Part shown: piece after piece, positions 23,967 through 47,499 of the stretch | Position numbering within the stretch: position 1 is the stretch's first letter | Layout of the letters: each line of letters begins with the position of its first letter | NCBI RefSeq assembly: GCF_000152805.1 | Contig: NZ_CH902578.1 | Location: 3,397,906-3,461,905 of the forward strand | Direction of reading: 5' to 3' | Source: Maritimibacter alkaliphilus HTCC2654 | Lineage (GTDB): Bacteria > Pseudomonadota > Alphaproteobacteria > Rhodobacterales > Rhodobacteraceae | Length of the DNA: 64,000 nt | Position numbers and translations under genes: made by a program | The notes under the pieces: generated by a model | Databases searched by the model: none | Told to the model about the DNA's origin: nothing | The model's input: only the letters and a program-made list of their open reading frames with translations

Positions 23967-25472
23967 TTATTTCTTCTTTCCAAAACCGGACAGGTCCGAC
24001 GGCATCTGCATGCCGCCCATGTTCCCCATGCCGGGAAAACCACCCGCCGCGCCCTTCTGGGCGAGCATCTTGGCGGCTTCGTCGAGTTTCTTGGGATCCT
24101 GGAACTCCGTCGGGTCCACGTCCTTGCCGAACATGGATTTCATCGCGTTCTTCAGCATCCCGCCTTTGCCCATCTTGCCGAGCTTCTTCATCATGTCGGC
24201 CATCTGGCGGTGCATCTTGAGCAGTTTGTTGAGGTCCGCGACCTCCATCCCCGCGCCCGCAGCGATCCGCTTTTTGCGGCTGGCCTGAAGGATCTGGGGA
24301 TTGCGGCGCTCGTGCTTGGTCATCGAGTTGATGAGCGCGATGTGACGGCGCAGCATCTTGTCGTCGAGCCCGGCCTGCGTCAGGCCCTTGGCGGCTTTGC
24401 CCATGCCGGGGAGCATCCCCATCACGTTTTCCATGCCGCCCATCTTGATCATCTGCTCGAACTGGCTTTTCAGGTCGTTCATCGAGAACTGACCCTTGGC
24501 CATCCGGCGCATCATTTTCTCGGCCTGCTCGGCCTCGATGGTTTCCTGAGCCTTCTCGACCAGCGCGACGATGTCGCCCATGCCGAGGATGCGGCCTGCG
24601 ATCCGGTCGGGCTCAAACGTTTCGAGCGCGTCGAGTTTCTCACCCACACCGACGAAGCGAATGGGTTTGCCGGTCACCGCGCGCATCGACAGCGCGGCAC
24701 CGCCGCGCCCGTCACCGTCCATCCGGGTCAGGACCACGCCGGAGATGCCGACCTTGGCGTCGAACTCTTCGGCGACTTCCACGGCGACCTGACCGGTCAG
24801 GCCATCGACGACGAGAAGCGTTTCACGCGGGTTCACCGCCTTGGACACGTCCTCGACTTCCTGCATGAGAACTTCGTCGATCTGAAGGCGACCGGCGGTG
24901 TCGAGGAGGTAGACGTCATAGCCACCCATCGTGGCCTGCTGCTTGGCACGCTTGGCGATGTCGACGGGCTTCTGTCCCTCGACGATCGGCAGCACGTCGA
25001 CGCCGATCTGGCCCCCCAGCACTTCGAGCTGATGCATGGCCGCCGGACGGTAGACGTCGAGCGAGGCCATGAGAACGCGCTTGTTCTCGCGCTCCTTGAG
25101 GCGTTTGGCGAGTTTACCGGTCGTGGTCGTCTTACCGCCACCCTGCAGACCGACCATGAGGATCGGTGCGGGCGCGTTGTCGATCTTGAGCTTGCCGGGG
25201 TCTTCCGCGCCGGTGAGCACGGCGACCAATTCGTCATGGACGATCTTGACGACCTGCTGACCGGGCGTAACCGACTTGGTCACGGCCTGACCGGTGGCCT
25301 TGTCCTGCACCGCACGCACGAAGTCGCGCGCCACGGGGAGCGACACGTCGGCCTCGAGCAGCGCCACCCGCACCTCGCGCAGGGCGGTCTTGACGTCATC
25401 TTCCGACAGCGCACCTTGTTTCGTCAGCCGGTCAAAGACACCGGACAGCCGATCTGAAAGGCTCTCAAACAT
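23967..25472 (-). CDS. ffh: Signal recognition particle protein Ffh
   Basis: This is the SRP54 GTPase that binds signal sequences and 4.5S RNA and targets membrane proteins to FtsY. It has 501 residues. The N domain covers about 1-90, the G domain has GLQGGGKTTT near residue 107, DTAGRLQIDE, and TRMDGDGRGG, and the methionine-rich M domain ends in a Gly/Met tail. The ATG at 25472 begins MFESLSDRLSGVFDRL, the standard start. A promoter candidate lies just upstream. Confidence 0.96.
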   Translation of the reverse strand: MFESLSDRLSGVFDRLTKQGALSEDDVKTALREVRVALLEADVSLPVARDFVRAVQDKATGQAVTKSVTPGQQVVKIVHDELVAVLTGAEDPGKLKIDNAPAPILMVGLQGGGKTTTTGKLAKRLKERENKRVLMASLDVYRPAAMHQLEVLGGQIGVDVLPIVEGQKPVDIAKRAKQQATMGGYDVYLLDTAGRLQIDEVLMQEVEDVSKAVNPRETLLVVDGLTGQVAVEVAEEFDAKVGISGVVLTRMDGDGRGGAALSMRAVTGKPIRFVGVGEKLDALETFEPDRIAGRILGMGDIVALVEKAQETIEAEQAEKMMRRMAKGQFSMNDLKSQFEQMIKMGGMENVMGMLPGMGKAAKGLTQAGLDDKMLRRHIALINSMTKHERRNPQILQASRKKRIAAGAGMEVADLNKLLKMHRQMADMMKKLGKMGKGGMLKNAMKSMFGKDVDPTEFQDPKKLDEAAKMLAQKGAAGGFPGMGNMGGMQMPSDLSGFGKKK

Positions 25473-25852: not shown

Positions 25853-26623
25853 ATGGACAGGGGCGTCATCTACGTGGCCACAGGGGCCGACTACCGCGAT
25901 CTCGCGGTTGCGTCCGCGCGGTCCCTGCGTGTGGTCGAACCCGATCTGGCGGTGGACCTGTTCACCGATGCGCCCGAGGCGGTGCCGGGGGGGCTGTTCG
26001 ACGCCGTGCACCTGATCGCGGATCCCCACGACCGCTCGAAGCTCGACTGCATGGCCCTGACCCGGTTCGCTCGCACGCTGTTTCTGGACTGCGACACGCT
26101 GGTGGTGAACCCGCTGGGCGATCTGTGGGACATTCTGGACCGTTTCGATCTGGCGCTGGCGCATGACGTGCGGCGCAGGTCGGACCTGATCCGCGCCGGG
26201 CATTCGGTGACGACCCCCTATGCCTTTCCGCAGCTCAATTCCGGCGTCATGCTCTATCGCCGGTCCGAGGCGATGCGCGCCTTTCTGGCCGAGTGGGTGC
26301 GGCGCTACGTGGCGGCGGGCACCTATCGCGATCAGCCGGTGCTGAAAGACCTGCTGTGGGAGTCGGACCTGCGGTTCTACATTCTGCCGCCGGAGTTCAA
26401 CCTGCGCCGCGTGACCCTGCTCGACGCGTGGGAGCCGCTGGATGCGCGCCCCACGATCCTCCATTCGCATCGGTTCATGGATCACATGCGCCACGGCGGT
26501 GACCGGATTTCCGACGTGGTGGCGCTGATGGATGCCGAGCGTGCGGCGCTCGAGGCCGAATGGGACGCAGCGGGCGGGCGCGACGATCACCCGGTCCGGC
26601 GGTTCGACCCAAAAGGCGACTAG
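25853..26623 (+). CDS. Glycosyltransferase, GT-A fold (GT8-like)
   Basis: This is a 256-residue nucleotide-sugar transferase-like protein. The metal-binding DxD motif is in LFLDCDTLVVNPLGDLW near residue 80, and FPQLNSGVMLYRRSEAM follows near residue 127, as in GT8-type enzymes. The histidine in ILHSHRFMDH may complete the site. The donor and acceptor are unknown. I chose the ATG at 25853 because VIYVATGADYRDLA is the first strand of the fold. It shares a CTAG stop palindrome with the convergent paralogue array. Confidence 0.78.
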   Translation: MDRGVIYVATGADYRDLAVASARSLRVVEPDLAVDLFTDAPEAVPGGLFDAVHLIADPHDRSKLDCMALTRFARTLFLDCDTLVVNPLGDLWDILDRFDLALAHDVRRRSDLIRAGHSVTTPYAFPQLNSGVMLYRRSEAMRAFLAEWVRRYVAAGTYRDQPVLKDLLWESDLRFYILPPEFNLRRVTLLDAWEPLDARPTILHSHRFMDHMRHGGDRISDVVALMDAERAALEAEWDAAGGRDDHPVRRFDPKGD

Positions 26624-27078
26624 CGCTCACCGAGCCAGTCGTTGATCGTCTCCGCGACGGCCTTCTTGTCGCCCGAGGAATAGATCTGGCTGATCGGGTG
26701 ACGACCCGCCGACTGTCCTTCGTCGATGACGAGCGTGACGCGGGCGGTGTCGGACAATTCTTCGACGATGGCGCGGGACACCTCCGACAGGTCATGGCGC
26801 ACGCGCTTGGTGCCGAAGATGGACTTGTTGCGCAATTCGACCCAACCTTCGGGGCGGTGGAACACGGCCTGCGCGCGACGCACGAAGGCGCCGAAGCCGA
26901 TGCCGCCACAGACCACGCCGAGCAGGATCACGGTGACCCCCTTGAGCGTGTCGCCTTCCGACAGGATCGCGATGCCGAAGACGAGGAACCCCAGGATGAA
27001 GGCGATCAGGCCAAGACTCATCCACACGGGTCGGTAATCGACGATGAGCAGATCGGGGGTGTTCTCGGTCACTTTCAT
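26620..27078 (-). CDS. Tandem membrane protein paralogue D (PH-like domain)
   Basis: This is the last of four tandem paralogues, 152 residues. It begins MKVTENTPDLLIVDYRP, has two membrane helices within residues 19-65, then the shared core VFHRPEGWVELRNKS, VRHDLSEVSRAIVE, TLVIDEGQSAGRHPI and the closing INDWLGER. The soluble part reads like a bacterial PH-type beta domain, in which a strand pair, a helix-capping DLSEV and a terminal helix recur. No function is known to me. It overlaps its upstream neighbour by four bases. Confidence 0.75.
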   Translation of the reverse strand: MKVTENTPDLLIVDYRPVWMSLGLIAFILGFLVFGIAILSEGDTLKGVTVILLGVVCGGIGFGAFVRRAQAVFHRPEGWVELRNKSIFGTKRVRHDLSEVSRAIVEELSDTARVTLVIDEGQSAGRHPISQIYSSGDKKAVAETINDWLGER

Positions 27079-27533
27079 CGGGCCAGCCAGTCGTTGATCG
27101 CCCGCGCGACGCGGTCCGGTGTCGGGCCGGACAGGAAGGCGCGGGTGAGTTGGTGGTGCCGGTCGCCCACGACCAGCGCCGTGCGCCGGATCGCGGGACC
27201 GTCGTGGGAGCGGATGGTGTCGACCACCGCCCGCTCGATCCCGTGCAGAGGCAGGGTCCGGCGCGAGAGGCCCGCGTCGTCGCACCAGAGGATGTCGGCC
27301 ATGCCCGTGGTCCGGTCCAGCGTCACCGTCGTGTGGGCGAGAAAATCGTAATGGACGAGAAGTGCGAGGACGAGGGCGAGCGCAAGGGGCACCGCCGCCC
27401 AGAGTGACCCGTGCCATGCAAGGTCCACGCCGACCGCAAGCGCCACGCCCGCGAGGGCCGCGAGCATCATCATCAGGCTGCGCGGGCGGTGTTCGATCAC
27501 CAGCCGGTCCGGTCGGTTCACCGCAATTCTCAT
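27075..27533 (-). CDS. Tandem membrane protein paralogue C (divergent member)
   Basis: This is the third gene of the array, also 152 residues, and the most diverged. It keeps the frame of the family (MRIAVNRPDRLVIEHRP, two helices, a soluble beta part, INDWLAR at the end). The central RPEGW motif is replaced by TLDRTTGMADILW, and the SAGxHPI loop is lost. Both ends overlap neighbours by ATGA. Faster divergence suggests a changed role within the set. Confidence 0.72.
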   Translation of the reverse strand: MRIAVNRPDRLVIEHRPRSLMMMLAALAGVALAVGVDLAWHGSLWAAVPLALALVLALLVHYDFLAHTTVTLDRTTGMADILWCDDAGLSRRTLPLHGIERAVVDTIRSHDGPAIRRTALVVGDRHHQLTRAFLSGPTPDRVARAINDWLAR

Positions 27534-28003
27534 TCCACCCCCAGCCAAGCGTTGATCGCGTCCTTGCACCGCTGGTGCCCGGGTCCGTTGGAATAGGCAA
27601 GGGTGATCGGGTGGTGTCCCGCGCTTTCGCCCTCGGGGATCACGAGAACCACGCGCCACGTGTTCGACGTGCCGGCACCACGCAGAATGTCGAGTTCGGC
27701 GTGGGACACCTCGGACAGGCCGTGGCGCACCGTTTCGGTCGAAAAGACGGATTTGCGGCGCAGTTCGATCCAGCCCTCGGGGCGGTGGAACACCACCTGA
27801 ACCCGCCGCACGAACAGGGCGTATCCGATCAAGCCGAGCCCGCCGCCGAAGCCACCGAAGATCAGCCCCGCCCAGATCCCTTCGGAGACGAGGAAAAAGC
27901 CGACGGCGACGAAAGCGAGGATGAACAGGATCAGCATGATCGCGAAGACCAGCGGCCGGTCGTCGATGACGAGCAGATCAGGGGTGTTCACCGTGACCTT
28001 CAC
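27530..28003 (-). CDS. Tandem membrane protein paralogue B (PH-like domain)
   Basis: This is the second gene of the array, 157 residues. I placed the start at the GTG at 28003, since VKVTVNTPDLLVIDDRP aligns with the N-termini of the sister proteins and the GTG overlaps the upstream stop as GTGA. It has two helices, then VVFHRPEGWIELRRKSVF, VRHGLSEVSHAELD, LVIPEGESAGHHPITLAYS and INAWLG. The function is unknown. Confidence 0.75.
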   Translation of the reverse strand: MKVTVNTPDLLVIDDRPLVFAIMLILFILAFVAVGFFLVSEGIWAGLIFGGFGGGLGLIGYALFVRRVQVVFHRPEGWIELRRKSVFSTETVRHGLSEVSHAELDILRGAGTSNTWRVVLVIPEGESAGHHPITLAYSNGPGHQRCKDAINAWLGVE

Positions 28004-28473
28004 CGCTCCCCCAGCCACTCGTTGATCGCGCGGGCCGTCCGTTCGTGGCCCGAGCCCGAGGAATAGGCGAAGGTGATCGGATGAAGGCCTGCGCTTTCAC
28101 CGGCGTCGAACACCAGCGTCACGCGGTAGGTCGTGCCACCCTCGGACGACCGATTGCGCTCCACGATGGCGCGGGCGACATCGCGCAGGTCGTGGCGGAC
28201 CTTGAGTGCGCGAAAGACGTTCTTGCGGCGAAACTCGACGTAGCGGTCCGGGCGGTGGAACACCACCTGAACCCGCCGCACGAAAATCGCGAAGAAGAGC
28301 AGCCCCATGCCGCCGCCCAGGCCCGCGAAGACCAGCCCCCACCATTCGCCCGCAGCGAGGATACCCAGACCCGCACCGAGAAAGACCAGCGTAAAGACGA
28401 TCAGCATGATCGCGATGAACACGGGCCGGTCTTCGACGATCAGGAGGTCCGGGGTGTGGGTGATGACTTTCAT
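28000..28473 (-). CDS. Tandem membrane protein paralogue A (PH-like domain)
   Basis: This is the first gene of the four-member array, 157 residues, so any promoter lies upstream of 28473. It begins MKVITHTPDLLIVEDRP and has two glycine-rich helices within residues 18-65. It continues with VVFHRPDRYVEFRRKNVF, VRHDLRDVARAIVERN, VTLVFDAGESAGLHPITFAY and INEWLGER. The match to paralogues B and D is plain by eye over the full length. The function is unknown. Confidence 0.75.
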   Translation of the reverse strand: MKVITHTPDLLIVEDRPVFIAIMLIVFTLVFLGAGLGILAAGEWWGLVFAGLGGGMGLLFFAIFVRRVQVVFHRPDRYVEFRRKNVFRALKVRHDLRDVARAIVERNRSSEGGTTYRVTLVFDAGESAGLHPITFAYSSGSGHERTARAINEWLGER

Positions 28474-28650
28474 GGGCTCTGCGTGGCTGACATGCGAAAG
28501 CTACCGCCTTGGCGCGAAGGGGGGAAGGGCGACGTCCTCGGTGGGTCGTGATGGGTCCGGCAATGGACTGCCGCGAAAACCCGACCTTGCCTCTCTCCAC
28601 ATCCCGTGCTTCCTTCTGCCACAAGTGTTCACATGCGCACAGGAGGCGAC

Positions 28651-29517
28651 ATGCAGGATTGGGACGGGCTGCGCACCGCCTTCGAAGTCGTGCGGCACGG
28701 GACGGTTTCGGGTGCCGCGCAGGCGCTGGGCGTGCATCATGCGACGGTGATCCGCCACATCGACGCGCTCGAGGCGCGGTTGGGGGTGAAGCTGTTTCAG
28801 CGTCACGCGCGGGGTTACACGCCGACCGAGGCGGGCGAGGATCTGGCGCGGGTCGCGCAGGCCACGGACGATCAGTTCGCCCAGCTTTCGGCGCGGCTGT
28901 CGGGGCAGGGCAGCGCGGTGCAGGGCGAGCTGGTGGTGACCACGCTCGCCTCGTTCACCCGGCGGCTGATGCCGGTTCTGGCCGAGTTTCAGGCCCAGCA
29001 CCCGAGTGTGACGCTGGTCTATCGCACCGGCCCCCGGATTTTCCGTCTGGAATACGGCGAGGCCCACGTTGCGATCCGGGCCGGCAGCCCGCCCAAGGAA
29101 CTCGACAATGTGGTGCAGGAACTGGCGACGCTGAAAACCGCGCTTTACGCCGCGCCGTCCTATGTCGAACGGCGGGGGATGCCGACCGAGGCGGACCTCG
29201 TCACCCATGATTTCGTGGGCGCCGATGACGAACAGACCCGCGCGCCGGGGCTGCGCTGGATGTCGGCCAACATCCCGCGTGACCGAGTCGTGTTCCGGGC
29301 CATCGACGATCTGTCGCTTTACGAAGCCCTGCGTGCGGGTGTCGGCCTGGGGTTCTCGCCCGTGGCCGAGGCCGGGCCGGACCTTGTGCAGGTGTTGCCG
29401 CCGCGCGACGAATGGTCGGCGAAGCTGTGGCTTGTCACCCATGTGGATCTGCACCGCACGGCCAAAGTTCAGGCGCTGACGCAGCATCTCAAGGCCAGTC
29501 TCAAGGATTGCGAATGA
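28651..29517 (+). CDS. LysR-family transcriptional regulator
   Basis: This is a 288-residue LysR regulator. The N-terminal helix-turn-helix is typical: MQDWDGLRTAFEVVRHGTVS, AAQALGVHHATVIRHIDALE, LFQRHARGYTPTEAG. An effector-binding domain follows. The ATG at 28651 has a perfect AGGAGG eight bases upstream. It is coupled by ATGA to an EamA-type exporter, so the exporter or its substrate may be its target. The effector is unknown. Confidence 0.9.
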   Translation: MQDWDGLRTAFEVVRHGTVSGAAQALGVHHATVIRHIDALEARLGVKLFQRHARGYTPTEAGEDLARVAQATDDQFAQLSARLSGQGSAVQGELVVTTLASFTRRLMPVLAEFQAQHPSVTLVYRTGPRIFRLEYGEAHVAIRAGSPPKELDNVVQELATLKTALYAAPSYVERRGMPTEADLVTHDFVGADDEQTRAPGLRWMSANIPRDRVVFRAIDDLSLYEALRAGVGLGFSPVAEAGPDLVQVLPPRDEWSAKLWLVTHVDLHRTAKVQALTQHLKASLKDCE

Positions 29518-30413
29518 GCGAGCGGTTCGGCGGGGCCGAGGCGGTCAAGGGCCATGGGGCCATGCTTGCCTTTTCGATGCTGGTGGGCGGGTCTTTCACG
29601 CTTGGCTCGCTTACGGCGAACCTTATCGACCCGGTGGCCTACATGGCGCTGCGCTTCGCGATCGCGGCGGTGATCCTTGGCGTTATCGGGGTTGCGACCG
29701 GGGCGATCCGGCTGCGCGATGCACGGGCGCCGTGGCGCTGGCTGGTGCTGGGCGCCGTGTTCGGCAGCTATTTCGCACTGATGTTCGAGGGGCTCAAGAC
29801 GGCGATGCCGGTGTCGGCCTCGGCGGTGTTCACGCTGGTTCCCGTGATGACGGCGGCGTTTTCGTGGCTGCTCTTGCGGCAGGTCACCACACGCCGGATC
29901 GCTCTGGCCCTGACCGTGGGCGCGGTGGGGGCGCTCTGGGTCATCTTCCGGGGCGACCCGGCGCGGCTGGCCGCGTTCCAGATCGGGCGGGGCGAGGTGA
30001 TCTATTTCATCGGCTGTATTTCCCATGCGCTCTACGTGCCGCTGATGCGCAAGCTCAGCCGGGGGGAGAGCGCGATTGCCGCGTCGTTCTGGGTGCTGTC
30101 GGCCGGGTTTCTCGTGCTCGCGGGATACAGTGCGCGCGACCTTGTCAGCGTCGATTTCGGGGCGATGCCGCCGATCTTCTGGGTCGCGCTCGCCTATCTG
30201 GCGATCGGGGCGTCGGCGATGACCTTCGTGCTTCTGAACTTCGCGACCATGCGCCTGCCCGGCGCCAAGGTCATGGCCTATACCTATCTCACCCCCGGCT
30301 GGGTGATCCTGTGGGAGTTGGCGTTCGGGCACGGGTTGCCGGACCTCTGGACGCTGCTTGGCCTGCTCATCACCGCCGTCGCGATCCTGATGCTTCTCAA
30401 ACACGAAGCCTGA
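29514..30413 (+). CDS. EamA/DMT-family membrane transporter
   Basis: This is a 299-residue protein with about ten membrane helices in two EamA repeats. The first repeat includes PVAYMALRFAIAAVILG and MPVSASAVFTLVPVMTA, and the second ends in LPGAKVMAYTYLTPGWVIL. The family exports amino acids, metabolites or drugs. Its ATG overlaps the LysR stop codon. It ends three bases before the convergent CrtC-like gene. Confidence 0.88.
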   Translation: MSERFGGAEAVKGHGAMLAFSMLVGGSFTLGSLTANLIDPVAYMALRFAIAAVILGVIGVATGAIRLRDARAPWRWLVLGAVFGSYFALMFEGLKTAMPVSASAVFTLVPVMTAAFSWLLLRQVTTRRIALALTVGAVGALWVIFRGDPARLAAFQIGRGEVIYFIGCISHALYVPLMRKLSRGESAIAASFWVLSAGFLVLAGYSARDLVSVDFGAMPPIFWVALAYLAIGASAMTFVLLNFATMRLPGAKVMAYTYLTPGWVILWELAFGHGLPDLWTLLGLLITAVAILMLLKHEA

Positions 30414-44448: not shown

Positions 44449-45273
44449 ATGAAGATCGTTCTGTGGATCCTTGGGCTGGCGCTGCTGGCGGCGATTGTGG
44501 CGACGGCGGCACAGGCCCTTTTCGTGAGCCGGACCGTCGCGGCGCGCGAGGCGCGTCTGGCCGTGACGAAGGGCGGCACGCTGCGCGACGACCTGCCCGA
44601 GGTGGTGCGCGCCTTTGCCGAGCGCGGGTTGGCGGGGGCGCCGCCGGGCAGGGTCGTGCGCCTGCGCCAGAGCGTCGAGATGGTGCTGAAGCCGGGGGCC
44701 GGGTGGCAGCCGATGCGGGCGCGGCAGGTCATCGGGATCGATACTGCGGGCTTTGTCTGGGTGGCGGCGATGAAGGTGGGACCGATCGCGCTGGTCAAGG
44801 CCATCGACGCGTTCGGCGAGGGGCACGGGGTGCTCGACATTCGTGTGCTCGGCGCGTGGCGGATGGGTGTGTCGAAGGGGCCGGACGCGGACCGGGCCGA
44901 GGCCGCGCGATACCTTGCCGAACTGCCGTGGTCGCCCGACGCGATCCTGCTGAACCGCGATCTGATCTGGAGCGAAACGGCGGACGGGGTCGAGGTCGCG
45001 CTGGACACGGCAGGGGGCGAGGCGCGGGTCGCGTTCTACTTCGACGCGGCGGGCGACATCGTGCGCATGACCGCGAAGGACAGGGCCGCGACGCAGCCGG
45101 ACGGAAGCGTCCGGCTGCTCGACTGGGCCGGTCACTTTTCGGACTACGGCATGGTCGGCGGGCGCCGCATCCCGCGCCGGGGGGAAGTGGGCTATATCTA
45201 TCCCACCGGCTACGAGGCCTACTGGCGCGGGACGATCACCGATTACAGGGTCGAGGCGAGGTCGCCCAACTGA
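44449..45273 (+). CDS. Membrane-anchored protein, DUF6920-like
   Basis: This is a 274-residue protein with one N-terminal membrane helix (residues 2-23) and a soluble remainder. RVVRLRQSVEMVLKPGAGWQ, RMGVSKGPDADRAEAARYLA and the late GRRIPRRGEVGYIYP look like the DUF6920 group of unknown role, though I am not certain. The ATG at 44449 has GGGAGG just upstream. Its last 31 bases overlap the convergent SRPBCC gene. Confidence 0.65.
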   Translation: MKIVLWILGLALLAAIVATAAQALFVSRTVAAREARLAVTKGGTLRDDLPEVVRAFAERGLAGAPPGRVVRLRQSVEMVLKPGAGWQPMRARQVIGIDTAGFVWVAAMKVGPIALVKAIDAFGEGHGVLDIRVLGAWRMGVSKGPDADRAEAARYLAELPWSPDAILLNRDLIWSETADGVEVALDTAGGEARVAFYFDAAGDIVRMTAKDRAATQPDGSVRLLDWAGHFSDYGMVGGRRIPRRGEVGYIYPTGYEAYWRGTITDYRVEARSPN

Positions 45274-45734
45274 TCGATGGCCGTGCCCCAGCCGTCGAAA
45301 AAGCCCATGCTTTCGTGGCTGTCGCGCGTCGCGCCGTCCGCGTGAAGCGCACGGGCGGTGACCTTGGTCCCGGCCTCGGTCGCTTCCAGCATGTAGACGC
45401 CCGTCAGGAAAGCGCTGCCCTTGGGGTGAAAGCCCGGCGTCATCGCGTCGGTGAAGGCAAATGTCCGGCCCTCGTCCGCGATCAGGACGCAGCCGGGACC
45501 GGCGTCCTGCGTTTCCCCGTTCGGGCCGAACATCGGCGTATGGAAGATGCCGCCCGGTCGCGGGTCGATCACCGCGCCGCGCACCTGCCAAGGCTTCGGG
45601 CAGAACCATTGGGCGAGCAGGTCCGGGTCGGTCAGGCAGCGCCACAGGGTCGCGGGCGTGGCGGAAACGGTGCGGGTCAGTTCGAGGTCGGTGTCGGGGT
45701 TGAAAGCGAAAGGGTCCATCGGGTGTCCTGTCAT
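45243..45734 (-). CDS. SRPBCC/AHSA1 domain protein
   Basis: This is a 163-residue START-like fold protein of the AHSA1 group. ATPATLWRCLTDPDLLAQWF and PGGIFHTPMFGPNGE are typical, and HESMGFFDGWGTAIDQLGD is the C-terminal helix. The fold binds hydrophobic ligands in a cavity; no ligand is known here. Its ATG at 45734 overlaps the upstream gene by ATGA. It is the last gene of the ArsR-AHSA1 operon. Confidence 0.85.
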   Translation of the reverse strand: MTGHPMDPFAFNPDTDLELTRTVSATPATLWRCLTDPDLLAQWFCPKPWQVRGAVIDPRPGGIFHTPMFGPNGETQDAGPGCVLIADEGRTFAFTDAMTPGFHPKGSAFLTGVYMLEATEAGTKVTARALHADGATRDSHESMGFFDGWGTAIDQLGDLASTL

Positions 45735-46183
45735 TTGAACGTGGCGACGAGCGCGTCGATCAGGGCTTCCATGCCGCCCTGTCGCATTTCGGCCCCGTCC
45801 GAACCTTCGAAGAAGACGCCCGCTTCGGTGTAGTCGAGCCGGGTGCCCGCTTCGGTCGAGGTAAGCTCGACCGTCGCCAGCGAGGTGGAGTGGACGCGAC
45901 CATCCCACGACATCGAATAGGCATAGACGATGCGTTCGTCCGGCTTGATGTCGAAATAGGTCGTCGCGTTTTCGTGGATGCCCGTGGCCGGACCCTCGGT
46001 CATGGTGAATCGCCCGCGCTCGCCCCCGCCGACCCGGAAATCCAGTGCGTAGTCGGAGGCCGACAGGTGCGGGTTCAGGAACCACGCGCGTTTCAGGTCT
46101 TCGTCCGCGAAGGCGCGGAAGACGCTGGCGGGGCTGGCCGCGATGGTGCGGGAAACAGAAAAATTGCCGTGTTCGATGGTCAT
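45731..46183 (-). CDS. SRPBCC/AHSA1 domain protein
   Basis: This is a 150-residue protein of the same fold. FSVSRTIAASPASVFRAFAD opens it, and RLDYTEAGVFFEG with GGMEALIDALVATF closes it, as in many ArsR-linked AHSA1 proteins. It overlaps the genes on both sides by four bases. No catalytic role is evident. Confidence 0.86.
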   Translation of the reverse strand: MTIEHGNFSVSRTIAASPASVFRAFADEDLKRAWFLNPHLSASDYALDFRVGGGERGRFTMTEGPATGIHENATTYFDIKPDERIVYAYSMSWDGRVHSTSLATVELTSTEAGTRLDYTEAGVFFEGSDGAEMRQGGMEALIDALVATFK

Positions 46184-46635
46184 GATGCGTTCTCGATATG
46201 GTGGATCAGATTGGCGATTGAGGTCGTCCAGCCGCCCTTGGTTCCGGCGAGCATTCCGTCGCCGACGAAGGATGTTGTGTAGACGTCGAGGGTCAGGCGT
46301 GTGCCGGCCTCGGTCGCGGCGAAGACGACGCTGACTTGCGAGGCGGCGAGGGGCGTGTCGCCCTTGCGCACGATTTCCGTGAAACTGACCGCGGCGGGTT
46401 CGTCGAGTTTGTGATAGCGCGTCTCGACTATGTAGGTCGGGTCCGACTTCGGGCCGCAGCGATGCAGCCCGGTGCCGCCGTCGCGCGGGTCGTGTTCCAA
46501 GACCTCGAACACCTCGTCAGGCGAGGGCGGCGACCAGATCGCGCGCGCTTTCGGGTCGAAAAAGGCGGCCCAGACGGCGGCGGGCAGGGCCGCAATCCCG
46601 CGCTCCAGCGTGAAGCGATCGTTGCCGAGGCTCAT
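46180..46635 (-). CDS. SRPBCC/AHSA1 domain protein
   Basis: This is a 151-residue protein, the first AHSA1-type gene after the regulator. FTLERGIAALPAAVWAAFFD starts the fold and GTKGGWTTSIANLIHHIE is the C-terminal helix. I chose the ATG at 46635 because MSLGNDRFTLERG fits the fold start and the ATG overlaps the ArsR stop by ATGA. Confidence 0.85.
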   Translation of the reverse strand: MSLGNDRFTLERGIAALPAAVWAAFFDPKARAIWSPPSPDEVFEVLEHDPRDGGTGLHRCGPKSDPTYIVETRYHKLDEPAAVSFTEIVRKGDTPLAASQVSVVFAATEAGTRLTLDVYTTSFVGDGMLAGTKGGWTTSIANLIHHIENAS

Positions 46636-46982
46636 GTCTCGTCCTTCGGAAAGGGGTTGGTTTCCGCTTCGATCCGTTTCGCGACCGCTTCGAGCCGGTC
46701 GAGGCGGCCCTCCCACACCCGTTTCTGTCTGTCGATCCAGGTTTCGGCAGGGCCGAACGCCTCGGGCGTGAGGGCGACGATGCGCTGGCGGCCGACCTTG
46801 CGGCTGGTCACGACGCCCGCGTCCTCAAGCCGGTCGATGTGCTTGAGGAAAGAGGGCAGCGCCATGTCGTGCGGGGCCGCCAGTTCCTTGATCGGCGCTT
46901 CGCCATGGGTCAGCCGTTCCACCACGTCGCGGCGGGTCTGATCGGCGAGCGCCAGAAACAGGATATCCATTTGGTTAGCCAT
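46632..46982 (-). CDS. ArsR-family transcriptional regulator
   Basis: This is a 116-residue winged-helix repressor. MDILFLALADQTRRDVVERL, LPSFLKHIDRLEDAGVVTSR and VGRQRIVALTPEAF match the ArsR class usually found with AHSA1 proteins. It has no metal-binding cysteines, so it is unlikely to sense arsenic. It leads an operon of three AHSA1 genes and probably controls it. Confidence 0.9.
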   Translation of the reverse strand: MANQMDILFLALADQTRRDVVERLTHGEAPIKELAAPHDMALPSFLKHIDRLEDAGVVTSRKVGRQRIVALTPEAFGPAETWIDRQKRVWEGRLDRLEAVAKRIEAETNPFPKDET

Positions 46983-47037
46983 GAAGCTAACTATTCACGC
47001 GACGCGATTCGGAGCAAGGGAAAAGTTACCCCGCAGG

Positions 47038-47499
47038 CTAACTGTTTTCGGATATGTCGGCGGACAGGCCGTCGAGCTTGGCGATGCCGTCGTCCCAACT
47101 GGCAAGGGCGCTGGGTTCGGACCCTTCGGCCTGCATCAACGCCGCTTCAAGCCGCGTGCCCGAGGCGATCTCGTGCAGGTCGATGACCAGCGTCGCCGGA
47201 TTGGCGGCCCCGGTCGGGCGATACTCGGCCCCGAGCGCGGTGGTAATGACCAGCCGGGTGGGGGCCTGCGCGTCGATCACACAGGCTGAAATGGTCTCGA
47301 GCTTCGCACCGGCGCGCGCCAGCGTGAGGTCGAAGCGCCCCCCGCGATGCGGCTCGACGATTGCACCGGCAAGATCCTCGCCGAACGGTTTGAACCACTC
47401 GACGAGCAGCCGACCGTCGGTCAGCGCGCGATAGACCCCTTGGGGTCTGGATTTCAGATACCGGGTCGTGCGGACTTCCTGATTGGGTCCGGGAATCAT
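47038..47499 (-). CDS. SRPBCC/AHSA1 domain protein (separate unit)
   Basis: This is a 153-residue protein, a fourth AHSA1-type member, placed upstream of the ArsR gene on the same strand. TTRYLKSRPQGVYRALTDGR opens the fold, and SALASWDDGIAKLDGL is the C-terminal helix. The ATG at 47499 begins MIPGPNQEVR. A 55-base gap separates it from arsR, so co-transcription is likely but unproven. Confidence 0.83.
   Translation of the reverse strand: MIPGPNQEVRTTRYLKSRPQGVYRALTDGRLLVEWFKPFGEDLAGAIVEPHRGGRFDLTLARAGAKLETISACVIDAQAPTRLVITTALGAEYRPTGAANPATLVIDLHEIASGTRLEAALMQAEGSEPSALASWDDGIAKLDGLSADISENS

Follow-up and report, generated by a model that had tools for sequence, protein, structure and literature searches.

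The stretch of DNA analysed here, called the window below, comprises 64,000 nucleotides (nt) of contig NZ_CH902578.1 of Maritimibacter alkaliphilus HTCC2654. It contains four consecutive minus-strand open reading frames (ORFs) for small membrane proteins, which were lettered A, B, C and D in the order of transcription. Sequence homology and fold, taken jointly, indicate that the four proteins almost certainly belong to a bacterial family homologous to the eukaryotic protein EROS/CYBC1. EROS is a helper protein that is needed to make NOX2, the oxidase of white cells. In the literature that was searched (titles and the openings of abstracts), no account of bacterial EROS relatives was found, and for PF15169, DUF4564 and Cybc1_Eros only the discovery paper of 2017 was retrieved. 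A first-pass annotation had called the role of the four proteins undescribed, which holds for the bacterial proteins in this literature, but the named human relative now offers a hypothesis.

Sequence and fold similarity to EROS

When the four proteins were searched one by one, no significant match was found in Pfam, NCBIfam or the PDB sequences, and EROS was not among the matches of protein A at E 10. The similarity was detected with family profiles, which were built without any EROS sequence. A profile of 55 members matched EROS at E 7.5e-6, and a wider profile of 52 members matched it at E 2.1e-9 (40.4 bits) over residues 4–162 of 164, the second-best match of the latter (E 0.18) being far behind. 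The sequence homology found with these profiles was full-length and collinear. A profile of DUF2244 served as a control for the common membrane plan. It was made from 30 sequences, 29 of which matched PF10003, while L071 was added by reading, and EROS was not among its six matches at E 10. PF15169, the Pfam family of EROS, was shown at E values up to 1 by 5 of the 55 members (best 0.0015), and the highest score of a relative, L166 from another genus of the same family, was 24.8 bits, which is below the cut-off of 27.

The predicted structures of proteins A and C consist of a PH domain with a transmembrane hairpin between strands 2 and 3. In the fold comparisons, the human EROS chain 8kei_D matched both models over the full length and was the only protein to do so among the matches listed, with 13–20% identity in the structural alignments. 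Both models contain the beta sandwich closed by a C-terminal helix that characterizes PH and PTB domains, and nearly all of ranks 2–50 were PH, PTB or other PH-like domains. The PH-like soluble domain postulated in the first-pass annotation was thus borne out, but the agreement of the entire architecture with EROS had escaped notice. The diverged protein C was modelled with a confident fold that retains the full plan. Rank 11 of its list, a viral envelope chain aligned to the hairpin only, is taken as a chance match. Proteins B and D probably fold like A. Of 15 literature titles listed in a search for PH domains of bacteria that carry a membrane part of two helices, none was relevant.

The models can be compared with what has been described for EROS in three papers. 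Residues 1–20 and 62–166 of EROS form one PH domain in an AlphaFold prediction, and its two membrane helices sit between strands 2 and 3 (PMC9767466). The same 2022 paper remarks that a PH domain with inserted membrane helices, if confirmed, would be unobserved among known structures. EROS relatives have been reported in vertebrates, sponges and sea urchins, together with a similarity to Ycf4 (PMC5379978). EROS grips NOX2 via its two helices and its strands, and R108, R129, A131, T132 and G133 lie at the NADPH-binding sub-domain of NOX2; loss of EROS leads to a form of chronic granulomatous disease, and its mechanism is still regarded as an open question (PMC13296129). On reading of the profile alignment, EROS residues 129–133 align with the start of the conserved bacterial loop GESAGxHP, which is three residues longer than in EROS and is missing in C.

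The four paralogues and their relatives

All four ORFs were selected, with the starts given in the Table, by a gene caller that uses codon log-odds, for which 12 further genes of the window served as the training set (scores 49–74). Their number, lengths and positions agree with the first-pass annotation, and so do the overlaps of four bases at all three junctions (A/B 28000-28003, GTGA; B/C 27530-27533, ATGA; C/D 27075-27078, ATGA). The array is therefore probably co-translated, as had been proposed. Pairwise identities were 53% for A and B, 54% for A and D, and 56% for B and D. The reported strong divergence of C was confirmed, as it is only 30%, 31% and 26% identical to A, B and D, respectively. 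The paralogy of the four proteins is not due to chance. Four motifs that had been described as common to all copies hold as a consensus, but exact forms occur in some copies only: VFHRPEGW and VRHxLSEV in B and D, SAGxHPI in A, B and D, INxWLGER in A and D, and none of them in C.

The family was found in 33 of 149 sampled genomes of the same bacterial family, the window's own genome included (55-member profile, E 0.001). In a scan of the class, at least 10 of 240 genomes matched profile A4 at E 1e-4, two of them from the same family, and in a scan of the phylum at least 11 of 398 genomes matched profile A3 at this threshold, eight of them from the same family. The proteins are sparse outside their own bacterial family. 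In the window's own genome, A–D are the close members, and a fifth, distant member is encoded elsewhere (L110:7735-8280; C4:324809-325279). The latter is 22% identical to A and lies beside a DUF808 gene, and genome G152 has an orthologue of it (L111:7600-8148).

Tandem members were present in 8 of the 33 carriers (G000, G044, G065, G074, G080, G119, G137 and G145), showing that arrays recur in the bacterial family, and overlaps of 4 nt occurred in four tandem carriers besides the window. Three variants were seen in passing. At L164:576-2070, in another genus, there are three tandem family ORFs, the first of which is a weak match (E 3.8e-4) and shares 4 nt with the second. At L165:814-1968 (minus strand), in a genome from a different family within the phylum, a member is fused to a DUF3592 domain. 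The gene of G079 is broken by an in-frame TAA (L094:7564-7821).

A phylogenetic tree was used to assign the genes to types. B grouped with G151_1 and G155_1 (support 100/97), C with G152_2 and G150_2 (99/100), and D with G152_3 and G151_2 (100/99). The A-type genes fell with the B-type genes and did not form a resolved clade, and the long branches G151_3, L038_2, G145_1, G145_2 and G065_2 were placed uncertainly. Gene order is kept within the genus, namely A-C-D in G152, A-C in G150, and B-D plus a diverged third gene in G151. G149 has a diverged gene followed by A, G154 has A alone, and G155 has B alone. The contig of G153 breaks off within the adjacent gene, and therefore absence of the array cannot be judged there. 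The ratios of non-synonymous to synonymous substitution rates (dN/dS) were 0.20–0.32 for A (4 pairs), 0.22–0.34 for B (3 pairs), 0.38–0.59 for C (3 pairs) and 0.28–0.56 for D (3 pairs); these are Nei-Gojobori values, which codon bias may shift. All four gene types are under purifying selection, with dN/dS below 0.6. Occurrence of a single gene in relatives, together with lack of purifying selection on the others, had been named in the first-pass annotation as a refutation of its interpretation. A single gene is indeed frequent among relatives, but orthologues of B, C and D occur in other genomes of the genus, and all four types are under selection.

The first-pass annotation had favoured a hetero-oligomeric membrane complex, in which A–D would be permanent subunits and not chaperones, with translational coupling setting the stoichiometry. 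Four overlapping genes with an order that is kept in relatives, distinct types B, C and D with orthologues of their own, and the recurrence of pairs with 4-nt overlaps in other genera (L099, L119, L121, L123) are in agreement with this explanation. However, the sets vary within one genus, from A or B only to A-C and A-C-D, which indicates that no fixed set is needed. In addition, 4-nt overlaps were found at 16 of the 50 same-strand junctions among the called genes of the window, the array's three counted, and thus the overlaps of the array alone are ordinary. We regard a permanent complex as rather unlikely.

Proposed function and gene neighbourhood

By analogy with EROS, proteins A–D might act as membrane chaperones or assembly partners, and we consider the chances of this to be about even. 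Each protein would form one PH-type beta domain that is interrupted behind strand 2, where the chain would traverse the inner membrane and come back as a tight hairpin of two helices; the rest of the PH domain would follow on the cytoplasmic side, with both termini probably inside. Like in EROS, the hairpin would pack on the helices of an immature membrane protein, and the PH face would hold the cytoplasmic part of that client. This explanation includes a division of labour, in which A–D would be specialized for different clients or for different surfaces of one client.

The gene ffh, which lies downstream of the array on the same strand, encodes the protein of the signal recognition particle (SRP), which delivers membrane proteins. 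A wider proposal is put forward as a long shot: EROS-type proteins may be an old bacterial class of membrane-protein maturation factors, the arrays linked to ffh may be sets of several members that serve membrane proteins just delivered by the SRP, and human EROS may be the eukaryotic branch that adopted NOX2. In a bacterial relative, which is open to deletion, tagging and purification, the work of the EROS fold could be tested in the absence of NOX2, and four natural paralogues would reveal how the choice of clients evolves.

A family gene was found upstream of ffh on the same strand in 23 of the 33 carriers, the interrupted copy of G079 among them; the position counts leave out carriers G081, G096, G134 and G147. 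Measured up to where the ffh match starts, the gap was 55–158 nt in 15 of the 23 cases and 351 and 443 nt in two. A match to the LysR family accompanied the gene in 21 and a match to EamA in 14 of the 23 ffh-linked carriers, and in carrier G139 the LysR and EamA side is present and the contig ends. Beyond ffh, genes for chorismate mutase, rpsP, rimM and trmD follow in the window and in most of the long stretches. No similar sequence was found at E 10 within 0.95–1.49 kb upstream of ffh in 15 genomes that had been scored as non-carriers, the array region of G153 being off the contig. The features of the window are collected in the Table. The convergent gene between the array and ffh, which has no Pfam match at 1e-5 and whose 3′ end shares 4 nt with that of gene D, makes co-transcription of the array with ffh unlikely in the window.

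Table. Array genes, sub-features of gene A and neighbouring genes (window positions)
Feature	Position	Strand	Basis
Gene A, 157 amino acids, first of array; EROS-like PH domain containing a transmembrane hairpin	28000..28473	-	ORF, caller, model
Segment inside gene A	28282..28422	-	hydropathy and model
Conserved loop GESAGLHP, gene A residues 125-132	28078..28101	-	alignment, conservation
Gene B, 157 amino acids, GTG start	27530..28003	-	ORF, caller, tree
Gene C, 152 amino acids, diverged copy, full fold kept	27075..27533	-	ORF, tree, model
Gene D, 152 amino acids	26620..27078	-	ORF, caller, tree
Intergenic region, gene A to divergent LysR gene, 177 bp; presumed promoter region of array	28474..28650	.	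coordinates; role inferred
LysR-family regulator, divergent, conserved neighbour	28651..29517	+	caller, family matches
EamA-family transporter, adjacent in some relatives	29514..30413	+	caller, family matches
Glycosyltransferase-like convergent gene between array and ffh	25853..26623	+	name by reading of sequence
ffh (SRP54), downstream, conserved neighbour	23967..25472	-	family matches

Several results weigh against one part or another of the proposed relationship and function. The PF15169 cut-off of 27 bits was not reached by the window proteins (A, 11.5 bits; B–D not listed), and therefore the family is called a bacterial sister family of EROS and is not assigned to PF15169. No protein exceeded this cut-off in 147 genomes of relatives (one weak match, E 0.0097) or in 398 genomes of the phylum; these genome negatives are weak, because no control genome gave a signal in either scan and the phylum scan did not report the genome of L166. 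No family member was found in 116 of the 149 genomes, which shows that the family is not part of the core work of the SRP. Other genes stand between the member and ffh in 6 of the 23 linked carriers, including the window, and no ffh was present in the fetched stretches of G086, G074, G080, G119 and G044, the last three of which span only 5–9 kb. The conserved position close to ffh represents a single inherited synteny and not the result of many independent events, and the linkage is thus weak evidence of function. With respect to the client, PF01794 (Ferric_reduct) had no match at E 1e-5 in the window's own genome and showed no association with the family among the 149 genomes, as it was missing from 9 of 33 carriers versus 17 of 116 non-carriers. 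PF01794 also covers other heme membrane proteins, and therefore its presence says little and only its absence counts. A NOX-type flavocytochrome was consequently judged an unlikely client.

The proteins could also be membrane-anchored, PH-like adaptors that bind lipid or peptide in envelope sensing or scaffolding, in which case the likeness to EROS would reflect descent of the fold only. The many PH and PTB domains in the fold comparison are consistent with this explanation, as is the gene context in two carriers. In G074 and G080, the pair lies among genes for putative secreted proteins, as read from their N-termini, and beside a two-component system, and the locus of G074 also includes a VWA protein, which hints at envelope work. 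However, the full-length fold match was to EROS alone, and EROS was also the best sequence match, and we consider such an adaptor improbable. The run at L099:1527-9274 contains a tandem pair, likely secreted proteins and a VWA protein and adjoins a histidine kinase and a response regulator; at L119, the N-termini of the pair, the secreted ORFs and the two-component genes are similar to those of L099.

Homology to EROS would also be compatible with an assembly factor for flavocytochromes of the NOX or ferric-reductase type, the client class of EROS, but the distribution of PF01794 described above makes this highly implausible. A recent local duplication with little function, to which the copy numbers of 1 to 4 across the genus and the divergence of C might point, was rejected on the basis of the tree and the dN/dS values and is hardly credible in view of the orthologues, the intact frames and the confident fold of C.

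The window contains a second local array of paralogues, which is formed by four AHSA1 (SRPBCC) genes at 45243-47499 on the minus strand (45243-45719, 45731-46183, 46180-46635 and 47038-47499), with an HTH_20 regulator among them at 46632-46970.

Comparison with known systems

Six groups of proteins are considered as the closest known systems. TMEM249, an auxiliary subunit of CatSper (9ubw_J), gave a partial profile match to chain residues 11–84 that was not significant (E 0.38), and it was absent among the best 50 structural matches listed. The YqeB-like bacterial PH domain bPH_10 (PF23494) was matched by 3 of the 55 members at E up to 1 (best 5.4e-4) and was not listed for A–D at E 10. DUF2244 (PF10003) is an alphaproteobacterial membrane protein of similar size and, by reading, similar plan, which is also encoded in the window's own genome. 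One of the 55 members matched it at E 4e-4 and none of A–D at E 10, and the profile comparison was weak (probability 63%) and confined to the C-terminal half. Membership in DUF2244 was rejected; the DUF2244 profile also misses EROS.

Thomas et al. 2017 described Ycf4, an assembly factor of photosystem I, as an ortholog of EROS (PMC5379978). Ycf4 (PF02392) was not listed for A–D at E 10, nor for the 55 members among the matches listed, which comprised 25 of 58 Pfam families. PIGH, a subunit of the GPI-GlcNAc transferase, is predicted to have an EROS-like PH organisation according to PMC9767466; it belongs to the eukaryotic GPI pathway. The closest known system is EROS/CYBC1 itself (PF15169; human 8kei chain D). 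Proteins A–D differ from it in being bacterial, in occurring as tandem paralogues, in scoring below the Pfam cut-off, in the low identity of the structural alignments (13–20%), in the GESAG loop that is longer by three residues, and in belonging to a genome in which no Ferric_reduct protein was found.
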